NCBI GenBank assembly: GCA_903885195.1
Contig: CAISHQ010000094.1
Location: forward strand, 1 to 42,855
DNA length: 42,855 nucleotides
From: an uncultured Pseudomonadota bacterium
GTDB taxonomy: Bacteria > Pseudomonadota > Gammaproteobacteria > Steroidobacterales > Steroidobacteraceae
Reading direction: 5' to 3'
Position numbers and translations under genes: made by a program
Shown: in pieces, positions 15,200 through 36,572 of the stretch
Position numbering within the stretch: position 1 is the first letter of the stretch
How the letters are laid out: each line of letters begins with the position of its first letter
Notes under the pieces: generated by a model
What the model was told of the DNA's origin: nothing
The model's input: only the letters and a program-made list of their open reading frames with translations
Database searches by the model: none

Positions 15200-15829
15200 A
15201 TGCCGCGTTATCGGTCGAAGTCCTGGCGGGCCTTTCAACCGCGATCGTCGGCTACGGCTGAATCGGCTACCGCTGAATCGGCTACCGCTGAAGTTAAGCC
15301 GTCCGTTGCGCCGCCCAAGGCCATCTTGCGTGGTGCGTGTCGCATTCTGGGCCTCGATCCGGGATCGCGTCGCACGGGCTACGGCCTGATTGAGGTCAAC
15401 GGCGCTGAGATTCGCTGTCTTGCGCAGGGCCGTATCGAGGTTGACGGCTTGCCGCTCGTCGAGCGGCTGGCGCGTATCCATGCGGGAGTTGCCGATCTCG
15501 TTGTCCTGCATCGACCGCAGGAAGTGGCGGTCGAAAAAGTCTTCGTCAATCGCAACGTCGAAAGTGCGCTGAAGCTCGGTCAGGCGCGGGGGGCAGCTCT
15601 CGCCGCGCTCGGCCCGACCGTCGAGCTCGCTGAGTACGCGCCGCGGGCGATCAAGCTCGCCACGGTGGGCTTTGGTGGTGCCGACAAGATGCAGGTCGTG
15701 CACATGATGCGTACGTTGCTGCAGCTGCCCGGCAAGGTGACGAGCGATGCCGCCGACGCGCTCGCCGTGGCGATGTGTCATGCGCAGCATCGCCGGCTCG
15801 GAGTACTCATGGCCGGAGGTGTCGGGTGA
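15200..15829 (+). CDS. ruvC: Holliday junction endodeoxyribonuclease RuvC
   Basis: RuvC cuts Holliday junctions symmetrically during recombination, guided by RuvAB. The RNase H-like core begins with ILGLDPGSRRTGYG (D53), and contains E112 in VEKVFVNRN and D183/D186 in SDAADALA, matching the four acidic residues of the family. From the ATG at 15200 the protein is 209 residues, about 46 longer at the N-terminus than E. coli RuvC. The extra segment is basic, then holds three SATAE repeats. A TTG just before the core (around 15327) could be an alternative start. The stop overlaps the ruvA start (GTGA). Confidence 0.95.
   Translation: MPRYRSKSWRAFQPRSSATAESATAESATAEVKPSVAPPKAILRGACRILGLDPGSRRTGYGLIEVNGAEIRCLAQGRIEVDGLPLVERLARIHAGVADLVVLHRPQEVAVEKVFVNRNVESALKLGQARGAALAALGPTVELAEYAPRAIKLATVGFGGADKMQVVHMMRTLLQLPGKVTSDAADALAVAMCHAQHRRLGVLMAGGVG
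15248..15292 (+). repeat. Three 15-bp tandem repeats in the ruvC 5' end
   Basis: The unit TCGGCTACCGCTGAA occurs three times in direct succession (15248-15262 with one mismatch, 15263-15277, 15278-15292). It is in frame and encodes SATAE three times, outside the conserved RuvC core. A length change of one unit would keep the frame. Confidence 0.9.
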
Positions 15830-22472: not shown

Positions 22473-23125
22473 GCGTCGTCGCGGCACCACGCCTGAAGCT
22501 CACGGAGATCTTCAGGTCCCTGCAGGGAGAGGCCGACACCGTCGGTATTCCGACCGTGTTCGTTCGCCTCACGGGCTGTCCGCTGCGCTGCGGCTATTGC
22601 GATACGGCGTATGCATTTCATGGCGGCGAGTGGTGGTCGATCGAGCGGATCATCGATCGGGTGCGCGAACTCGAGGTGACCCATGTCTGTGTCACGGGCG
22701 GCGAGCCCCTTGCTCAGCCCTCGGTCCACGCCTTGCTGGCGGCGCTGTGCGATGCCGGCTACCGAGTGTCGCTCGAGACGAGTGGTGCGATGTCACTCGC
22801 TGCCGTCGATCCGCGGGTGGTGAAGGTGGTCGACGTGAAGACCCCGGGCTCTGGTGAGGTGGAGCGCAATCTATACGCCGAGCTCGACGCGCTGAATGCC
22901 ACCGATCAGATCAAGTTCGTGATCACGAGCCGGGCCGACTACGAATGGAGTCGTTCGCAGCTTCGCGAGCGTGCCTTGTCGAAGCGTTGCAGCGTGCTCT
23001 TCTCGCCGAGCCATGCGCAGCTTCCTGCGCGCGATTTGGCTGACTGGATCCTGGAGGATCGGTTGCCGGTGCGGTTGCAGATCCAGTTGCACAAATATCT
23101 TTGGGGCGATGTCCCGGGGCGATGA
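22469..23125 (+). CDS. queE: 7-carboxy-7-deazaguanine synthase QueE
   Basis: QueE is the radical-SAM enzyme that contracts 6-carboxytetrahydropterin to 7-carboxy-7-deazaguanine in the queuosine pathway. The 218-residue protein has EIFRSLQGE near the N-terminus and the [4Fe-4S] motif [11 protein letters not shown] with C37, C41 and C44. [10 protein letters not shown] follows as the SAM-binding GGE motif. GTG at 22469 overlaps the cpoB stop (GTGA). queC follows directly, so two successive steps are co-encoded. Confidence 0.96.
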
Positions 23126-23135
23126 GGGGCAGCGC

Positions 23136-23822
23136 ATGAAAGCTCAGGCGCAGCGCAGGAAGGCGGTGGTGCTGCTGTCGGGCGGGCTCGACTCCGCTAC
23201 GGTGCTGGCGCTTGCGCAGGAGCGCGGCTTTGCCTGTCACGCCCTGTCGGTGCACTACGGCCAGCGACACTCTTCTGAGCTTGCGGCCGCGGCGCAGGTG
23301 GCGCGCGTGCTGGGTGCCGCAGAGCACCGCGTCATGGGCGTGGACCTCGCTGGGATTGGCGGCTCGGCGCTGACTGATGTGGCCATCGAGGTGCCCTCGA
23401 CGCCGGCTCCGGGAATCCCCGTCACGTACGTCCCGGCGCGCAACACCCTGATGCTCGCGCTGGCGCTCGGTTGGGCCGAGGTTCTCGAGGCTGAGGCCCT
23501 GTTCATCGGCGTCAACGCAGTCGACTACTCTGGCTACCCGGACTGCCGTCCGCAGTTCATCGAGGCCTTCCAGACGCTCGCTGAAGTGGGGACTCGGGCC
23601 GGGGTATCGGGCCATGCGCCACGCATCGAGGCCCCACTGCTGCATCGGTCCAAGGCCGAGATCATCCGCGAGGGTGCAAGGCTCGGAGTCGACTATGCGC
23701 TGACGGTGTCCTGCTATCAGGCCGATCACGAGGGACAGGCCTGTGGTCGCTGTGATTCCTGTCGTTTGCGACGCGAAGGATTCCTTGCGGCGGGTGTGCC
23801 CGACCCAACCCGTTATGTGTAG
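23136..23822 (+). CDS. queC: 7-cyano-7-deazaguanine synthase QueC
   Basis: QueC uses ATP and ammonia to convert the QueE product to preQ0. The 228-residue protein has the PP-loop SGGLDSAT near the N-terminus, [10 protein letters not shown], and a C-terminal zinc site formed by C193, C203, C206 and C209 (SCY then CGRCDSC). The ATG at 23136 is chosen because GAGGGG lies six bases upstream; the frame is open further into queE. The stop codon is part of the -10 box of the tRNA-Lys promoter. Confidence 0.97.
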
Positions 23823-30223: not shown

Positions 30224-31375
30224 TCAGGTCTCGACGCCGTGGCGGGACAGTGCCCACCTGACGTGTTCGCGAACAACAGCGCTTGGATCCTCCATGCGCG
30301 CGCACAGAGCAGACACGACCGCTTGATGAGTCCCGGCCGCGTGGTCAATCCCGGCCGCGTGGTCAACCCCGGCTGATGTCTGGGTGCTGCACGTCGACGA
30401 CCATCCTGTCGCAGCAGCGCAGTTGCCGAGCGCCACGGCGATGTTGCGCAACCAGCGCTCGTGACCGATGCGTCGGATCGCCGAGCCGCGCAGGCGCAAC
30501 TCGAACTCCTCGGCATTCCAGGCGAACAACTCGATGAGCGTCGCGGTGTCGAGCGCATTGCGTACGGCCCGTAATTGCGGGTGAGAGGCAGCCTGCGCGA
30601 ACTTGTTCCAGGGACAGACGAGCTGGCAGTCGTCGCAGCCGTAGATGCGGTTGCCGATCAACGGGCGCAAGGGCTCGGGGATCGATCCGGCCAGTTCGAT
30701 GGTGAGGTAGGAGATACAGCGCCGCGCATCGAGTTGGTATGGCGCGATGATCGCGCCGGTGGGGCAGGCGGGCAGGCAGGCCGTGCAGGTGCCGCAGTGA
30801 CTCGCGGCTGGGGCATCGGCCGGCAGAGGCAGATCAGTCAGCAGCTCGCCCAAAAAAAACCATGATCCGGCTTCACGGGCGATGAGGTTGGTGTGCTTGC
30901 CGATCCAGCCGAGGCCTGCATTGCGCGCCAGCGCTTTTTCGAGCACGGGCCCCGAGTCGACGAACACGCGATATCCGAACGGACCGACACGCTCGACCAT
31001 GCGGTCGGCGAGCCGCTGCAAGGCGTTGCGCATGAGCTTGTGATAGTCGCGGCCGAGCGCGTAACGCGATACGTAGGCGCGCTGTGGGTCGGCGAGTGTG
31101 GCAAGGGCGTCGGCGGCCTCTTCGGGCCAGTAATCCATGCGCACGCTTATGGAACGCAGGGTGCCGGGTTTCAGTTCCGCCGGACGGGCGCGACGACGGC
31201 CGTGCCGAGACATGTAGTGCATGTCGCCGTGGTAGCCCGCCTCGAGCCAGCGCAGCAGGTGCTGCTCGTCCTCAGGGAGTTCGACGTGGGCGACGCCGAC
31301 TGCCGCAAAACCGAGTTCCGCCGCGAACCCGTCGAGCTCCTGCCTCAGTGCCTGCATGTCGACGGCTTCGACCAT
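30224..31375 (-). CDS. queG: Epoxyqueuosine reductase QueG
   Basis: QueG reduces epoxyqueuosine to queuosine in tRNA using cobalamin and two [4Fe-4S] clusters. The 383-residue protein has RYALGRDYHKLMR and VDSGPVLEKALARNAGLGWIGKHT motifs, and two cluster motifs, CGTCTACLPACP and CDDCQLVCP. The C-terminal HEAT-like tail is interrupted by a low-complexity insert with repeated GxDHAA units. ATG 31375 or the internal ATG at 31357 could be used; no ribosome-binding site favours the first, and a -10-like box lies seven bases from it. It is divergent from nnr across a 20-bp gap, the same order as in E. coli. Confidence 0.95.
   Translation of the reverse strand: MVEAVDMQALRQELDGFAAELGFAAVGVAHVELPEDEQHLLRWLEAGYHGDMHYMSRHGRRRARPAELKPGTLRSISVRMDYWPEEAADALATLADPQRAYVSRYALGRDYHKLMRNALQRLADRMVERVGPFGYRVFVDSGPVLEKALARNAGLGWIGKHTNLIAREAGSWFFLGELLTDLPLPADAPAASHCGTCTACLPACPTGAIIAPYQLDARRCISYLTIELAGSIPEPLRPLIGNRIYGCDDCQLVCPWNKFAQAASHPQLRAVRNALDTATLIELFAWNAEEFELRLRGSAIRRIGHERWLRNIAVALGNCAAATGWSSTCSTQTSAGVDHAAGIDHAAGTHQAVVSALCARMEDPSAVVREHVRWALSRHGVET
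30331..30375 (-). repeat. 18-bp tandem repeat inside queG
   Basis: The unit TCCCGGCCGCGTGGTCAA (plus-strand reading) occurs twice without mismatch (30331-30348, 30349-30366) and a partial third copy follows. On the coding strand it encodes repeated DHAAG-type hexapeptides in a C-terminal segment where E. coli QueG has no such insert. Confidence 0.9.
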
Positions 31376-31395
31376 GCAGCCAGTATACTTCCGAC
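31376..31395. promoter_or_regulatory. Symmetric divergent promoter, queG/nnr
   Basis: The whole gap between the two start codons is 20 bp. Its exact centre is the palindrome AGTATACT (31382-31389), which reads as -10 box TATACT on both strands. Each box ends six bases before the respective ATG, so predicted start points coincide with the start codons and both messages would be leaderless. No strong -35 is visible inside either gene. Confidence 0.5.
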
Positions 31396-32937
31396 ATGCC
31401 TACGCCCGACGGGCTGTACCTGGCCGCGCAGGTGCGTGCCTGCGATCGACACGCGATAGACGTGCAGGGAGTTGCGGGATACACCCTCATGGAACGTGCT
31501 GCCGCGGCGGCACTAAGGCGGCTGCGTGCCGCATGGCCCGTGGCACGGGAATTGGCTGTCGTTTGCGGCGGTGGCAACAATGGAGGCGATGGTTACGTGC
31601 TCGCGCGTCTCGCGCAGTGCGAGGGACTGCGGGTCGAGGTCTTTGCTGTCGTGGACCCTGCTGCGCTGCAAGGCGATGCGGCACGGGCCGCGGCGGATTG
31701 CCGGAACGCGGGGCTGATTCCGCATTCCTTGCATGGGCCTCAGGCGATGCACGGACCTCAGGCGATGCACGAGCTCGGTAAGAAGGCGGGGCTCGATAGC
31801 TTCGACGTCATCGTGGATGCGGTGCTCGGCATCGGCTACTCGGGACCCTTGCGTAAGGACATTGCCCGCGCCATCGGTGCGATTCGTGCTGCAGGCCGCC
31901 CCGTGCTGGCACTCGATGTCCCCTCGGGGCTCAATGCCGACACCGGGCTCGTGAGCGATGTCGCCGTGCGTGCGGATGTCACGGTGACTTTCATCGCGCA
32001 AAAGTTGGGCCTGTGGATCAATGCTGGACCCGCGCATGCGGGGGCCGTGCTACTCGAGAACCTGGGTGTCGACACCACGGTGGCCGGGGCGCCCGTCCTC
32101 GAGAGGATGTCCGAGTCGTGCCTGAGGGCTGCATTGCCGCGGCGTTCGCGCGAGGCGCACAAGGGCTCAGCCGGTCACGTGATGGTTTTGGGCGGCGGCC
32201 CAGGCATGGCCGGGGCGGCTCGCCTCGCCGCAGAGGCGGCTCTGAGTGCCGGGGCAGGTCGCGTGACGGTGTGTGCGGCACCGGAGTCGGTGGCTGCGAT
32301 CACGGCGGCTGCGCCCGAACTCATGACACGTGCCGTCGAGGACCCTCGCGAGTTGCACTCGCTCCTCGCATCGGCAGATGTGATCGCCATCGGTCCGGGG
32401 CTCGGCCGCAGCGCCTGGGCTGAGGCCATGGTCGATGCGGCTCTTGCCGCGACGTGCCCGAGCGTTATCGACGCCGATGCGCTCAACGTCCTCGCGAGGC
32501 GACGGCAGGGCGGAGTCTCGATCCGTCGTAGTCACTGCATCTGGACGCCCCATCCGGGCGAGGCCGGCCGTTTGTTGCAGATCGACACTGCAGCTGTGCA
32601 GTCCGATCGTCTGGCCGCGCTGCAGGGGCTGATCGAGTGCTGCGGCGGTACGGTGGTGCTGAAGGGCGCCGGCACCTTGGTCGGCGAGGGTGGGTCGGTG
32701 CCGTCGATCTGTGAGTGGGGCACGCCGGCCTTGGCGGTCGCCGGGACGGGCGATGTGCTGACCGGAGTGATCGCCGCGCTCTGCGCTCAGGGTGTGGCAG
32801 CGCCGCAGGCAGCGCGCGCCGCAGTGTGGTGGCATGCTGTGGCGGGCGAGCGGCGTTCGGCCGGTGCGACGCGAGGCTTGCGTGCCGGGGATTTGCCGCC
32901 ACAGTTCATGCAGATGCTGCGCGACGGGGCGTACTGA
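31396..32937 (+). CDS. nnr: Bifunctional NAD(P)H-hydrate epimerase/dehydratase
   Basis: Nnr repairs hydrated NAD(P)H. The 513-residue protein joins an N-terminal epimerase domain (about 1-215; GYTLMERAA, CGGGNNGGDGYVLAR, DAVLGIGYSGPLR, LDVPSGLNADTG) and a C-terminal ribokinase-like ADP/ATP-dependent dehydratase (about 235-513; GHVMVLGGGPGMAGA, WTPHPGEAGRLL, GTGDVLTGVIAAL). A six-residue repeat (HGPQAM twice) is inserted in the epimerase domain near residues 112-124. The ATG has no ribosome-binding site. tsaE starts immediately after the stop. Confidence 0.96.
   Translation: MPTPDGLYLAAQVRACDRHAIDVQGVAGYTLMERAAAAALRRLRAAWPVARELAVVCGGGNNGGDGYVLARLAQCEGLRVEVFAVVDPAALQGDAARAAADCRNAGLIPHSLHGPQAMHGPQAMHELGKKAGLDSFDVIVDAVLGIGYSGPLRKDIARAIGAIRAAGRPVLALDVPSGLNADTGLVSDVAVRADVTVTFIAQKLGLWINAGPAHAGAVLLENLGVDTTVAGAPVLERMSESCLRAALPRRSREAHKGSAGHVMVLGGGPGMAGAARLAAEAALSAGAGRVTVCAAPESVAAITAAAPELMTRAVEDPRELHSLLASADVIAIGPGLGRSAWAEAMVDAALAATCPSVIDADALNVLARRRQGGVSIRRSHCIWTPHPGEAGRLLQIDTAAVQSDRLAALQGLIECCGGTVVLKGAGTLVGEGGSVPSICEWGTPALAVAGTGDVLTGVIAALCAQGVAAPQAARAAVWWHAVAGERRSAGATRGLRAGDLPPQFMQMLRDGAY
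31731..31766 (+). repeat. 18-bp tandem duplication inside nnr
   Basis: Two adjacent 18-bp copies (31731-31748 and 31749-31766) differ at two positions and encode HGPQAM twice, in frame, within a surface loop of the epimerase domain. Confidence 0.85.
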
Positions 32938-33447
32938 ATGGGCGCTGAGTCCTCCGTCGAACTTGTTCTGCCCGATGAGGCGGCCACCGTCGAGCTCGGC
33001 GCTCACATCGCCCAGGCTTTGCCGAGCACTGTCGGGGAGGGCGCATGGCGGGTGCATTTGCACGGCGATCTCGGTGCGGGGAAGACCACCCTTGTTCGAG
33101 GCCTCGTGCGCGCGCTCGGCGGGCGGGGGGCCGTGCGCAGCCCCACGTACAGCCTCCTCGAAACCTATGCCCTAGCCCCGTGGGAGGTGCTGCACCTCGA
33201 CTTGTATCGCCTCGCAGGTGCGGGGGAACTACAGGCGCTGGGTCTTCCGGACTTCGATCGGCCGGGTGCCCTGTGGTTGATCGAGTGGCCGGAGCGGCTG
33301 GGCGCGGGGCCGCCCGCAGATCTCGAGGTGCAACTGCGTGCCGAACCCGCGCAGCACCGAGTGAGCTTAAGGGCCGGCACGCCGCGGGCGATCGAGGTCG
33401 TCGACCGGATCGCAAGTTCGTATGAGTTATCTCCGACAGGTCGTTAA
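32938..33447 (+). CDS. tsaE: tRNA threonylcarbamoyladenosine biosynthesis ATPase TsaE
   Basis: TsaE is the ATPase that resets the TsaBD complex making t6A37 in tRNA. The 169-residue protein has P-loop GDLGAGKT (43-50, K49), the SPTYSLLETY motif and LHLDLYRL, and ends with the IEWPERLG segment. The ATG directly follows the nnr stop, so translation is probably coupled. The amiB signal sequence begins 43 bp after the stop. Confidence 0.96.
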   Translation: MGAESSVELVLPDEAATVELGAHIAQALPSTVGEGAWRVHLHGDLGAGKTTLVRGLVRALGGRGAVRSPTYSLLETYALAPWEVLHLDLYRLAGAGELQALGLPDFDRPGALWLIEWPERLGAGPPADLEVQLRAEPAQHRVSLRAGTPRAIEVVDRIASSYELSPTGR

Positions 33448-33452
33448 TTTTC

Positions 33453-33482
33453 TTGAGTTTATTACCCCTGTCGTCGTACATT
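33453..33482 (+). promoter_or_regulatory. Candidate amiB promoter
   Basis: TTGAGT (33453-33458) and TACATT (33477-33482) are spaced by 18 bp, each matching four of six consensus bases. The start point would fall at or within a base or two of the amiB ATG (33491). Confidence 0.35.
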
Positions 33483-33490
33483 CCGCGCTC

Positions 33491-34756
33491 ATGAATCTGC
33501 CTTATTTCACCCGTCGTGTCTGGCTGCTCGGGGCTCTGGTCCTGCTGGCCGGACCGCTGGCCGAGGCCACTGAGTTACGTGCGATCCGCGTCGCAGAGGG
33601 TGCGGAGGCGACTCAAGTCGCCATCGAGTTGAGCGAGCCGACGGCCGTGACGGTCTTTACGCTCGATTCGCCGAAGCGCACCGTCATCGATCTCGCGGGC
33701 ACTCGCAAGGCGACGGCGCTGCGGCTCCCCAAGACGGGCGGTGGGATCGCCGCGCTGCGTGTGGGCCAGCAGGCCGGTGGGGTCCTGCGCGTGGTCATCG
33801 AGACCGAGGGCGGTGCGGAACTGCGCTCAGCGCCACTGCCGCAGCCGGGGGCGCGTTTGGCCCGTCTCGATTTGGCGATCTCTCGCAGTACAGCGTCACC
33901 GCCGGTCGTCGCCGAGGAGGCGGCAGCTCCGCCCGTGCTCAAGCCCATCAAAGCCGCCCATGCACCGCCTGCTCAGGGTCGCGACGTGATCGTCGCCATC
34001 GATGCCGGCCACGGTGGGCAGGATCCGGGCGCCATCGGTCCCGCTGGCACTCGCGAGAAGGACGTGGTGCTCGAGATTTCGCGCGAGCTTGCCGAGCGCA
34101 TCAACCGTGAGCCCGGCATGCGCGCCATACTCACGCGCGAGGGCGATTATTTTTTGAAGCACCGCGAGCGCATCCGTCGCGCACGCGACGCGGGTGCGCA
34201 GCTCTTCGTATCCGTTCACGCCGATGCCGTGCGTGATCGGAGCGTCTCCGGCTCCTCGGTCTACGTGCTCTCCGAGAAGGGGGCGACCGACGAGCAGGCG
34301 CGATGGTTGGCGGATCGGGAAAATGCCGCGGACTTGGCTGGGGGCATCTCTCTCGATGATAAGGATCCGGTAATTGCTTCGGTGCTCGTGGATCTGTCGC
34401 AGTCGGCGCAGATCAGTCAGAGCATGATCGCTGCCGAGCGGGTGCTGCGTTCGCTGGTGCGGGTGAACGAGGTGCGCAAGCCGCAGGTGCAGCAGGCCGG
34501 CTTCCTCGTGCTCAAGAGCCCCGATGTACCCTCGATGCTGGTCGAGACGGCATTCATCTCCAATGCGGCCGACGAGCGTTTGCTTGGGCGTCCCGATCGA
34601 CGTAGGGCGCTCGCCGAAGCGATTTTCGATGGCGTGAAGCAGTACTTCATCGACCATCCGCCCGATGGCTCGCGGTTTGCCCTGGCGCGCGAGGCAGAGC
34701 GCAAGGTCGTGGCGACCGTCGATGACGCGGCCGCGGGCCGCTCCGGCAAGTTGTAG
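33491..34756 (+). CDS. amiB: N-acetylmuramoyl-L-alanine amidase (AMIN plus Amidase_3)
   Basis: The 421-residue periplasmic enzyme cleaves septal peptidoglycan during cell separation. It has a signal peptide (about 1-24), an N-terminal AMIN domain for septal targeting (about 26-130), a Pro/Ala linker and an Amidase_3 zinc domain (about 165-400). The zinc domain contains AIDAGHGGQDPGA (zinc ligand H174), the KDVVLE glutamate, SVHADA and catalytic LVETAFISN. No LysM repeats are present. The ATG at 33491 is chosen because it begins a proper signal peptide; the frame opens earlier at 33422 inside tsaE. mutL starts 25 bp after its stop. Confidence 0.95.
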   Translation: MNLPYFTRRVWLLGALVLLAGPLAEATELRAIRVAEGAEATQVAIELSEPTAVTVFTLDSPKRTVIDLAGTRKATALRLPKTGGGIAALRVGQQAGGVLRVVIETEGGAELRSAPLPQPGARLARLDLAISRSTASPPVVAEEAAAPPVLKPIKAAHAPPAQGRDVIVAIDAGHGGQDPGAIGPAGTREKDVVLEISRELAERINREPGMRAILTREGDYFLKHRERIRRARDAGAQLFVSVHADAVRDRSVSGSSVYVLSEKGATDEQARWLADRENAADLAGGISLDDKDPVIASVLVDLSQSAQISQSMIAAERVLRSLVRVNEVRKPQVQQAGFLVLKSPDVPSMLVETAFISNAADERLLGRPDRRRALAEAIFDGVKQYFIDHPPDGSRFALAREAERKVVATVDDAAAGRSGKL

Positions 34757-34781: not shown

Positions 34782-36572
34782 GTGCCCATCCAACTGCTGC
34801 CGAGCGCACTCGTCGACCAGATCGCCGCTGGCGAGGTCGTCGAGCGACCGGCGTCCCTCGTCAAGGAATTGGTCGAGAATAGTCTCGATGCCGGGGCATC
34901 GCGCATCGATATCGACATCGAGAACGGCGGGCTGACACTCGTGCGCATCGTCGATGACGGTTGCGGCATCACCGCCGCCGAGCTGCCGCTCGCTGTGCAG
35001 CGGCACGCCACCAGCAAGATCGCGACGCTTGAAGATCTCGCCGCTATTCGCTCGCTCGGGTTCCGTGGTGAAGCACTGCCCTCGATCGGTTCGGTGGCGC
35101 GCTTGCGCATTGCGTCCCGCGCACGAGACGCGAGCGCCGGTGCGCAGCTGCGGGTTGAGGCGGGGGAGGTGGGCAGCGTGATTCCCGCCCCGCAGCCCCA
35201 AGGCACGCAGATCGAAGTTCGCGACTTGTTCTTCAACGTTCCCGCGCGGCGCAAGTTCATGCGTGCCGAGAGCACGGAGCTCGGGCACATCGCGAGGCTG
35301 GTCGAGCGGTTTGCACTGGCGCGGTTCGATGTCGCGTTTCGTCTGCGCCACCACGCTCGGGTGCTGCTCGATGCACCGCTCGCCGCCACGCCCGCGCAGC
35401 AGCGCGCCCGGATCGCTTCGATCATGGGCGACTCGTTCATCGAGGCCGCCGTACCGTTCGATCGGCAGTCGGGTCCCGTTCGGGTATGGGGCTGGCTCGG
35501 GCAACCCGAGGCGGCGCGCGCGAGCAGTGATCAGCAGTTCGCCTACGTCAACGGTCGCGCGGTGCGTGATCGATTGCTCGCGAATGCGGTGCGCATCGGT
35601 TATCGCGACGTGCTGTACCACGGCCGTCAGCCCGCGTACCTGCTGTACCTCGAACTCGATCCGCAGTGGGTCGATGTCAATGCGCACCCGCAAAAGCTCG
35701 AGGTCCGTTTTCGCGACAGTCGGCAGGTGCATGATTTCATCGTGCGCGTGGTGCACGAGGCGTTGGGCGTTGCGGCCGGTGTCGCGGCGCCTACGGCGCG
35801 TCCCGAGACGCTCGGTGTCGCCGCGCCTGCGCATCGTCCGACGGCGTTGGGCGCCCCGTTCGAGGTGCGCCAGCCCTCCCTCGATTGGACCGCCTTGAGC
35901 GGCGCGCCTGCCGAGATCCTGATGTCGCAAGGCGCTATGAGCGCCGAGTGGCTGCAGAGTGCCGAGCCGGGTCCAATCGTTGCGTTGACCGACGGGGTGC
36001 TCGGCACCGCGATCGCCCAGTTGCACGGTGTCTACATTGTCGCGCAGTCGGCTGCGGGGCTCGTGCTGGTGGATGCGCATGCGGCGCACGAGCGCGTGCT
36101 CTACGAGCGCATGAAGCGTGAGTTCGGCGCTCAACCTGCGATCCAGCGGCTGCTCGAGCCGCAGGTGGCCGAGGTGCCGCTGCATCAGACCGACGCGTTC
36201 GAATCGTTGCGGGACGAGTTTACGGCGGCTGGTTTCGAGATCGATGTGCTCTCGCCTGGGCGGCTGGCGATCCGGACCGTGCCGGCGTTGCTGGCCGGCG
36301 CCGACGCGGCGAATCTGATTCAGCAAGTGCTGCGTGATCTGCAGGAGGAGCGTGGCACGCACCACCTCGAGGCGGCGGCGCATCGATTGCTCGGCAACAT
36401 GGCCTGCAAGGCTGCCATCAAGGCCAATCGTCGTCTAAGCCTCGCCGAGATGAATACGCTGCTGCGCGACATGGAGGCGACCGAGCGAGCCGGGCAGTGC
36501 AATCACGGTCGCCCGACCTGGACGCTGTTGACGCTGGCGCAACTCGACCAGCTCTTCCTGCGCGGTCGTTGA
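34782..36572 (+). CDS. mutL: DNA mismatch repair protein MutL (endonuclease type)
   Basis: The 596-residue protein has an N-terminal GHKL ATPase domain with IAAGEVVERPASLVKELVEN, DDGCGI and SLGFRGEAL, a variable Ala/Pro linker (about 325-360) and a C-terminal dimerisation domain. That domain carries D431-x-H-A-x2-E437-x4-E442 (in DAHAAHERVLYE) and a CNHGRPTW motif near the end, the metal-binding set of MutL homologues that nick DNA themselves. E. coli MutL lacks these because MutH does the nicking. The GTG at 34782 matches the family start (MPIQLLP). The neighbours amiB and miaA follow the E. coli order. Confidence 0.97.
   Translation: MPIQLLPSALVDQIAAGEVVERPASLVKELVENSLDAGASRIDIDIENGGLTLVRIVDDGCGITAAELPLAVQRHATSKIATLEDLAAIRSLGFRGEALPSIGSVARLRIASRARDASAGAQLRVEAGEVGSVIPAPQPQGTQIEVRDLFFNVPARRKFMRAESTELGHIARLVERFALARFDVAFRLRHHARVLLDAPLAATPAQQRARIASIMGDSFIEAAVPFDRQSGPVRVWGWLGQPEAARASSDQQFAYVNGRAVRDRLLANAVRIGYRDVLYHGRQPAYLLYLELDPQWVDVNAHPQKLEVRFRDSRQVHDFIVRVVHEALGVAAGVAAPTARPETLGVAAPAHRPTALGAPFEVRQPSLDWTALSGAPAEILMSQGAMSAEWLQSAEPGPIVALTDGVLGTAIAQLHGVYIVAQSAAGLVLVDAHAAHERVLYERMKREFGAQPAIQRLLEPQVAEVPLHQTDAFESLRDEFTAAGFEIDVLSPGRLAIRTVPALLAGADAANLIQQVLRDLQEERGTHHLEAAAHRLLGNMACKAAIKANRRLSLAEMNTLLRDMEATERAGQCNHGRPTWTLLTLAQLDQLFLRGR

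Follow-up and report, generated by a model that had tools for sequence, protein, structure and literature searches.

The divergent genes queG and nnr of an uncultured Steroidobacteraceae bacterium appear to share a single promoter element. Their start codons lie 20 bp apart in the window (the 42,855-nucleotide stretch of DNA analysed here), and the middle of this gap holds AGTATACT, a perfect 8-bp palindrome in which the hexamer TATACT can be read on either strand. The best explanation, and quite probably the right one, is one sigma-70-type -10 element that is used both ways to make two leaderless mRNAs.

Positions 31373-31398 of the window read CAT GCAGCCAGTATACTTCCGAC ATG, with six bases between AGTATACT and each start codon, as a preliminary description of this DNA had reported. 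The hexamer coordinates (Table 1) also agree with its reading of TATACT as a -10 match on both strands with start points on the ATGs: when the final hexamer base is taken as -7, the predicted +1 is the A of the ATG on both sides. As start-point distance equals 19 plus the box offset, AKTATAMT, the offset-2 configuration to which AGTATACT belongs, gives predicted start points 21 bp apart. The same two gene starts were picked by a codon-usage gene caller blind to promoters; an alternative queG start is possible in principle at codon 7. GGAG, GAGG and AGGA are absent from the 20 bases upstream of both starts, confirming that neither gene has a Shine-Dalgarno sequence there. No convincing -35 element was found on either strand, the best matches being 2/6 at spacers of 15-18 and 4/6 at a spacer of 19 on the plus strand.

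Table 1. Features of the queG-nnr gap and its flanking genes (window positions).
Feature	Position	Strand	Basis
Divergent gap queG/nnr	31376..31395		Sequence and called starts
AGTATACT, putative symmetric -10 element common to queG and nnr	31382..31389		Two genome copies; conserved in relatives
TATACT, predicted nnr -10 box	31384..31389	+	Spacing 6 to ATG
TATACT, predicted queG -10 box (read 31387 to 31382)	31382..31387	-	Spacing 6 to ATG
nnr ATG, predicted leaderless +1 at 31396	31396..31398	+	Gene caller; spacing peak; start point inferred
queG ATG, predicted leaderless +1 at 31375	31373..31375	-	Gene caller; spacing peak; start point inferred
queG, tRNA epoxyqueuosine(34) reductase	30224..31375	-	TIGR00276 (NCBIfam), E 4.6e-140
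nnr, bifunctional NAD(P)H-hydrate epimerase/dehydratase	31396..32937	+	TIGR00197 and TIGR00196, above cut-offs
tsaE, next in likely nnr operon	32938..33447	+	TIGR00150, above cut-off
AmiB/AmiC-like N-acetylmuramoyl-L-alanine amidase	33422..34756	+	AmiC and AmiB the best NCBIfam matches, each below its cut-off
mutL	34782..36572	+	TIGR00585; start is the gene caller's choice

Both genes contain an in-frame repeat. That of nnr is a tandem 18-bp repeat at 31730-31765 (HGPQAM twice), and that of queG, read from the translation, lies near the C-terminus (VDHAAG-IDHAAG, 30332-30367).

The genome was surveyed for other genes with a -10-like box close to the start codon. The sample comprised 57 genome stretches and the window (529 kb in all, with 508 genes called by codon usage), and the spacing survey covered the 474 called starts that had 60 bases upstream. 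TANNNT peaked at spacings of 6 (18 genes) and 7 (10 genes) before the start codon; the baseline, averaged over spacings 0-4 and 11-30, was 2.2 (Poisson probability 3e-11 for spacing 6). Among these 28 genes, which take in queG and nnr, 26 begin with ATG and 26 have no Shine-Dalgarno 4-mer in the last 20 bases. Such a spacing peak without Shine-Dalgarno sequences indicates that a leaderless class exists in this genome, and the spacing favoured by that class is the spacing found on both sides of the queG-nnr box. Two more candidate leaderless genes were seen in the window, at 8-1102 on the minus strand and 23109-23822 on the plus strand, each with TANNNT at spacing 7.

The box and its geometry are both uncommon. 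AGTATACT has two copies in the 2.72-Mb genome, compared with about 14.6 expected from the base composition of the sample; its reversed control word has three. The queG-nnr gap is the second smallest positive gap among 70 divergent pairs in the 529-kb sample. The other genomic copy of AGTATACT (L073:1501-1508; contig C166 of this genome, G000, 15724-15731) also lies between divergent genes, which were named by reading their translations. One side is near-leaderless, with an acetyltransferase-like start 9 bases off, and the other is leadered, with an SDR-like start 61 bases off behind AGGGAG.

A search for CAT-N6-AKTATAMT-N6-ATG in 296 genomes of the order, with this genome among them, returned 11 sites, one each in 11 genomes, while the reversed control was found in one genome. 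Five of these sites are queG-nnr, from three families. Four lie at other pairs (L252, L254, L255 and L256, 1501-1526, all of family f15), with translation-based names: an oxidoreductase pair three times and a peptide-deformylase-like/cytochrome-like pair once. Two long ORFs flank nine of the 11 sites, and the other two are not gene pairs. The corresponding 7/7 geometry gave five sites in 24 genomes of the genus, every one at queG-nnr, and none for its control. The 18-bp geometry CAT-N5-TATNATA-N5-ATG, also at exact 6/6 spacing, had one site in each of seven of 117 genomes of the order (control, three); none of the seven is flanked by two ORFs longer than 100 aa, although for one of them (L264) the contig ends 287 bases away. 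Within searches limited to exact 6/6 spacing, these counts suggest that double-leaderless pairs of the order may prefer the offset-2 box.

The centred palindrome at queG-nnr is not a product of chance. Were it a coincidence, the two genes would be served by separate, more distant promoters. E. coli offers some support for this, as queG and nnr overlap there by 2 bp and their promoters must therefore sit within coding sequence. However, the box is conserved and recurs across relatives, and the geometry searches returned mainly queG-nnr (5/11 sites at 6/6 and 5/5 at 7/7), so that we find a coincidence scarcely credible.

Within the 24 genus genomes, AGTATACT occurs at 42 sites, 14 of them in the queG-nnr gap. 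As called by the gene caller, the remaining 28 are 17 divergent gaps, four codirectional gaps, six sites inside called genes and one unresolved; some of the calls inside genes look like miscalls, the same loci being divergent in sister genomes, and the counts are kept as called. The enrichment in divergent gaps is weak proof of two-way use and was not relied on, because divergent gaps also hold most of the other TATAMT boxes (with AGTATACT excluded, 9 of 16 promoter-gap sites).

Conservation of the nnr box was assessed in 60 genomes of the order, own included. nnr was present in 54 and its upstream region was read in 53, leaving out one genome that is cut before the nnr start (G038). A divergent queG accompanies nnr in 52 of the 53 loci, and tblastn gave no queG hit in the other (G029). 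A -10 box with at least five of six matches, at a spacing of 4-9 before an in-frame nnr start, was found in 43/53 loci (41 with 6/6), and the spacing was 6 or 7 in 38 of these 43; upstream shuffles averaged 1.2 of 53 loci and never exceeded 5. The ten loci without such a box are four congeners with split boxes, described below, and G045, G054, G041, G040, G035 and G047. In a box-anchored profile of 42 nnr loci, A at -14 (37/42) and G at -13 (40/42) are conserved like the hexamer itself. Further upstream the information content drops, to 0.47-0.66 bits at positions -15 to -17 and to no more than 0.39 bits between -18 and -40; the profile contains no -35 element. A-14 of the nnr reading is T-7 of the queG reading, and A-14 and G-13 together create the minus-strand TATACT.

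The same two bases could have another origin. If the promoter were a one-way leaderless nnr promoter, the symmetry would be a side effect of a lineage preference for G (and A) ahead of TATA, with the queG promoter lying unseen inside nnr. G-13 is indeed common, preceding the hexamer in 17 of the 28 leaderless candidates of this genome, which suggests a lineage preference for G beside the -10 box. In contrast, the frequency of A-14 at nnr compares with only 7/26 among the remaining leaderless candidates with TANNNT in this genome (Fisher 6e-7, calculated on rows that are not independent), and none of 10 TATAAT boxes in the promoter gaps sampled from the genus is preceded by AG. TATACT is unusable as a control for AG because AG before TATACT always makes the palindrome. 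On these comparisons A-14, rather than G-13, appears to be the telling base for symmetry, and G-13 to reflect a wider preference.

The state of the gap in relatives bears on the same alternative. A shared offset-2 box (AGTATAMT) no more than 9 bases from a start of both genes was found in 20/52 loci, with ATG on both sides in 15 and GTG or TTG needed on one side in five; the gaps of these 20 loci measure 20 bp (4), 21 bp (3), 22 bp (10) and 23 bp (3). A further 16/52 loci have a shared box near nnr, with the nearest queG start 11-150 bases away. The conservation of the symmetric box therefore does not require a leaderless queG, which speaks for a one-way nnr promoter, and four loci with an nnr box alone point the same way. 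A-14 is still kept in these 16 loci, in which the queG mRNA would carry a leader. The rest have two separate boxes (6), a queG box only (3), neither box (2) or a shared box far from nnr (1). Against a one-way promoter, the three loci with a queG box only carry AGTATAAG, in which the queG reading alone is left, and the queG ATG stands at spacing 6 or 7 in the 12 loci that combine AGTATACT with a 20-22-bp gap.

Comparison of the gap in relatives, which the preliminary description had proposed as a check, gave for the genus AGTATACT in 14 of 21 loci, AGTATAAT in two and separate boxes in five. By distance to the starts, 13 of the 21 have a shared box near both genes, three have a shared box far from queG, and five have two separate boxes. 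The five congeners with split boxes show what happens once the two readings come apart. queG has its own dedicated box there, at offset 16 and spacing 6, and the nnr box is CGTATACT, which has lost A-14, the base that would serve queG. The nnr spacing in these genomes is 9, 10, 25, 25 and 30, so that in most of them nnr has ceased to be leaderless in the strict sense. The queG tree (see below) contains four of the five, as one group; the splitting may have been a single event. Taken with the A-14 comparisons and the AGTATAAG loci, the dedicated queG box in this clade makes an nnr promoter that works in one direction an unlikely account of the symmetry, and an element shared by queG and nnr is preferred.

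We also considered whether AGTATACT might be a transcription factor operator or some other palindromic site, and not a promoter element, as might be suggested by a perfect 8-bp palindrome that is rare in the genome. However, it varies across the order as a -10 box does (C or A at -8), its spacing of 6-7 to the nnr start is maintained in the 38/43 loci given above, and after splitting each box retains one -10 reading and not the palindrome. An operator is thus very improbable. Both this reading and that of coincidence were rejected on the -10-like variation, the kept spacing and the recurrence at queG-nnr.

A second, named set of 80 loci extended the survey; L102 was dropped as identical to L007, and 62 of the remaining 79 show a divergent queG in the DNA examined. 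Five of the 62 have a symmetric TATGATA/TATCATA box no more than 9 bases from a start of both genes, in gaps of 17-20 bp. These boxes represent the 18-bp configuration (offset -1). The 23-bp configuration (offset 4) was seen in Xanthomonas hortorum and Arenimonas, where nnr has TAGAAT and queG has TATACT, with spacings of 6-7. Over both sets, neither gene is leaderless by the rule used in 33 of 114 loci, 31 of them in the named set; they include Steroidobacter, Peristeroidobacter, Photobacterium, Pseudomonas and Marinobacter, and the nnr box of Steroidobacter and Peristeroidobacter in the named set matches at only 4/6 positions. Four loci of Pseudomonas and Cellvibrio type (L098, L105, L120 and L124) have TATAATTYTGCCAGA in common in the queG-nnr gap, at the spacing of a leader rather than a leaderless gene, and a YTGCCAGA stretch covers the predicted start point.

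A queG tree was built from 110 of the 114 loci, leaving out four with a short queG, among them L021 of the split group. The offset-2 double-leaderless label requires nine changes on this tree, at least five of the changes being forced by well-supported branches, compared with a mean of 17.7 for shuffled labels. By this measure the state appears clustered, but repeatedly gained or lost. A broader proposal, which we hold to be evenly balanced between right and wrong, is that natural selection has made queG-nnr a minimal two-way promoter. AKTATAMT, with start points 21 bp apart, would then be a further symmetric configuration, in which gap, box and start codons are locked at 20-23 bp. Some lineages would lock in by symmetry, others would leave this state through a split of the box or the loss of one reading, and the 18- and 23-bp configurations would serve the same pair elsewhere in Gammaproteobacteria.

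A shared symmetric -10 box with two leaderless mRNAs is a well-supported prediction at queG-nnr. The polymerase holoenzyme would bind AGTATACT, read on both strands as a single sigma-70-type -10 element, in either orientation and without a good -35, and the start point would be the seventh base beyond the box. Both start codons lie exactly six bases from the box, and the queG mRNA and the nnr mRNA, the latter probably extending through tsaE-amiB-mutL, would therefore both start at the A of the ATG and be translated leaderless. The earlier proposal that one element drives both genes as leaderless transcripts thus gains support from comparative sequence, namely the conservation of the box and the leaderless class. 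It is plausible that polymerase binding at the single box is mutually exclusive, with one polymerase at a time. Mutually exclusive expression of queG and nnr, which had been part of the same proposal, is not established. By analogy, five E. coli bidirectional promoters would argue against it at basal activity, as their basal transcription was described as too low for polymerase competition; strong activation one way can repress the opposite direction (both PMC12825309).

Knowledge of bidirectional promoters comes mostly from start-site maps, and queG-nnr appears as two housekeeping mRNAs on one 8-bp element. As neither mRNA would have a leader, the start-codon spacing itself would record the promoter geometry and make it readable across genomes. 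Sequence alone could then show when a promoter stays shared, when its reading on one strand decays and when it splits. The arrangement also raises the question of whether sharing couples a tRNA-modification gene to nnr-tsaE-amiB-mutL.

The original work on bacterial bidirectional promoters by -10 symmetry is reportedly that of Warman, Grainger and colleagues in 2021. Such promoters are described as established, with common start-point distances of 18, 10 and 23 bp and small variations allowed (PMC12825309), and their divergent RNA as often antisense and non-coding (PMC10268837). In leaderless bacterial genes a TANNNT box is reported to precede the start codon by about 12 bp, and the gamma-proteobacterial cases to come mainly from Xanthomonadales and Legionellales (Zheng et al. 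2011, PMC3160421). A queG promoter deletion has been used in E. coli, in a text from which the word 'leaderless' is absent (PMC10950094). In the literature searched, mostly titles and the beginnings of abstracts, no description was found of a promoter both bidirectional and leaderless, and none of the titles on Xanthomonas leaderless dRNA-seq named a Xanthomonas start-site map.

As in the leaderless genes of Zheng et al. (2011, PMC3160421), both queG and nnr have a -10-like box spaced, at six bases each, to put +1 on the start codon. Unlike in that study, whose main text does not contain the word 'divergent', the box here is predicted to be common to two genes. Like the bidirectional promoters of Warman, Grainger and colleagues (PMC10268837, PMC12825309), queG-nnr has one -10 element readable on both strands, predicted start points on opposite strands and a poor -35. 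It differs from them in that both products are predicted to be leaderless, a word found in neither main text, and in that the predicted 21 bp between start points, and not the preferred 18, 10 or 23 bp, marks it as a variant. The queG-nnr promoter would be a variant of the published bidirectional class, one that sets its two start points at a distance of 21 bp and gives neither mRNA a leader.
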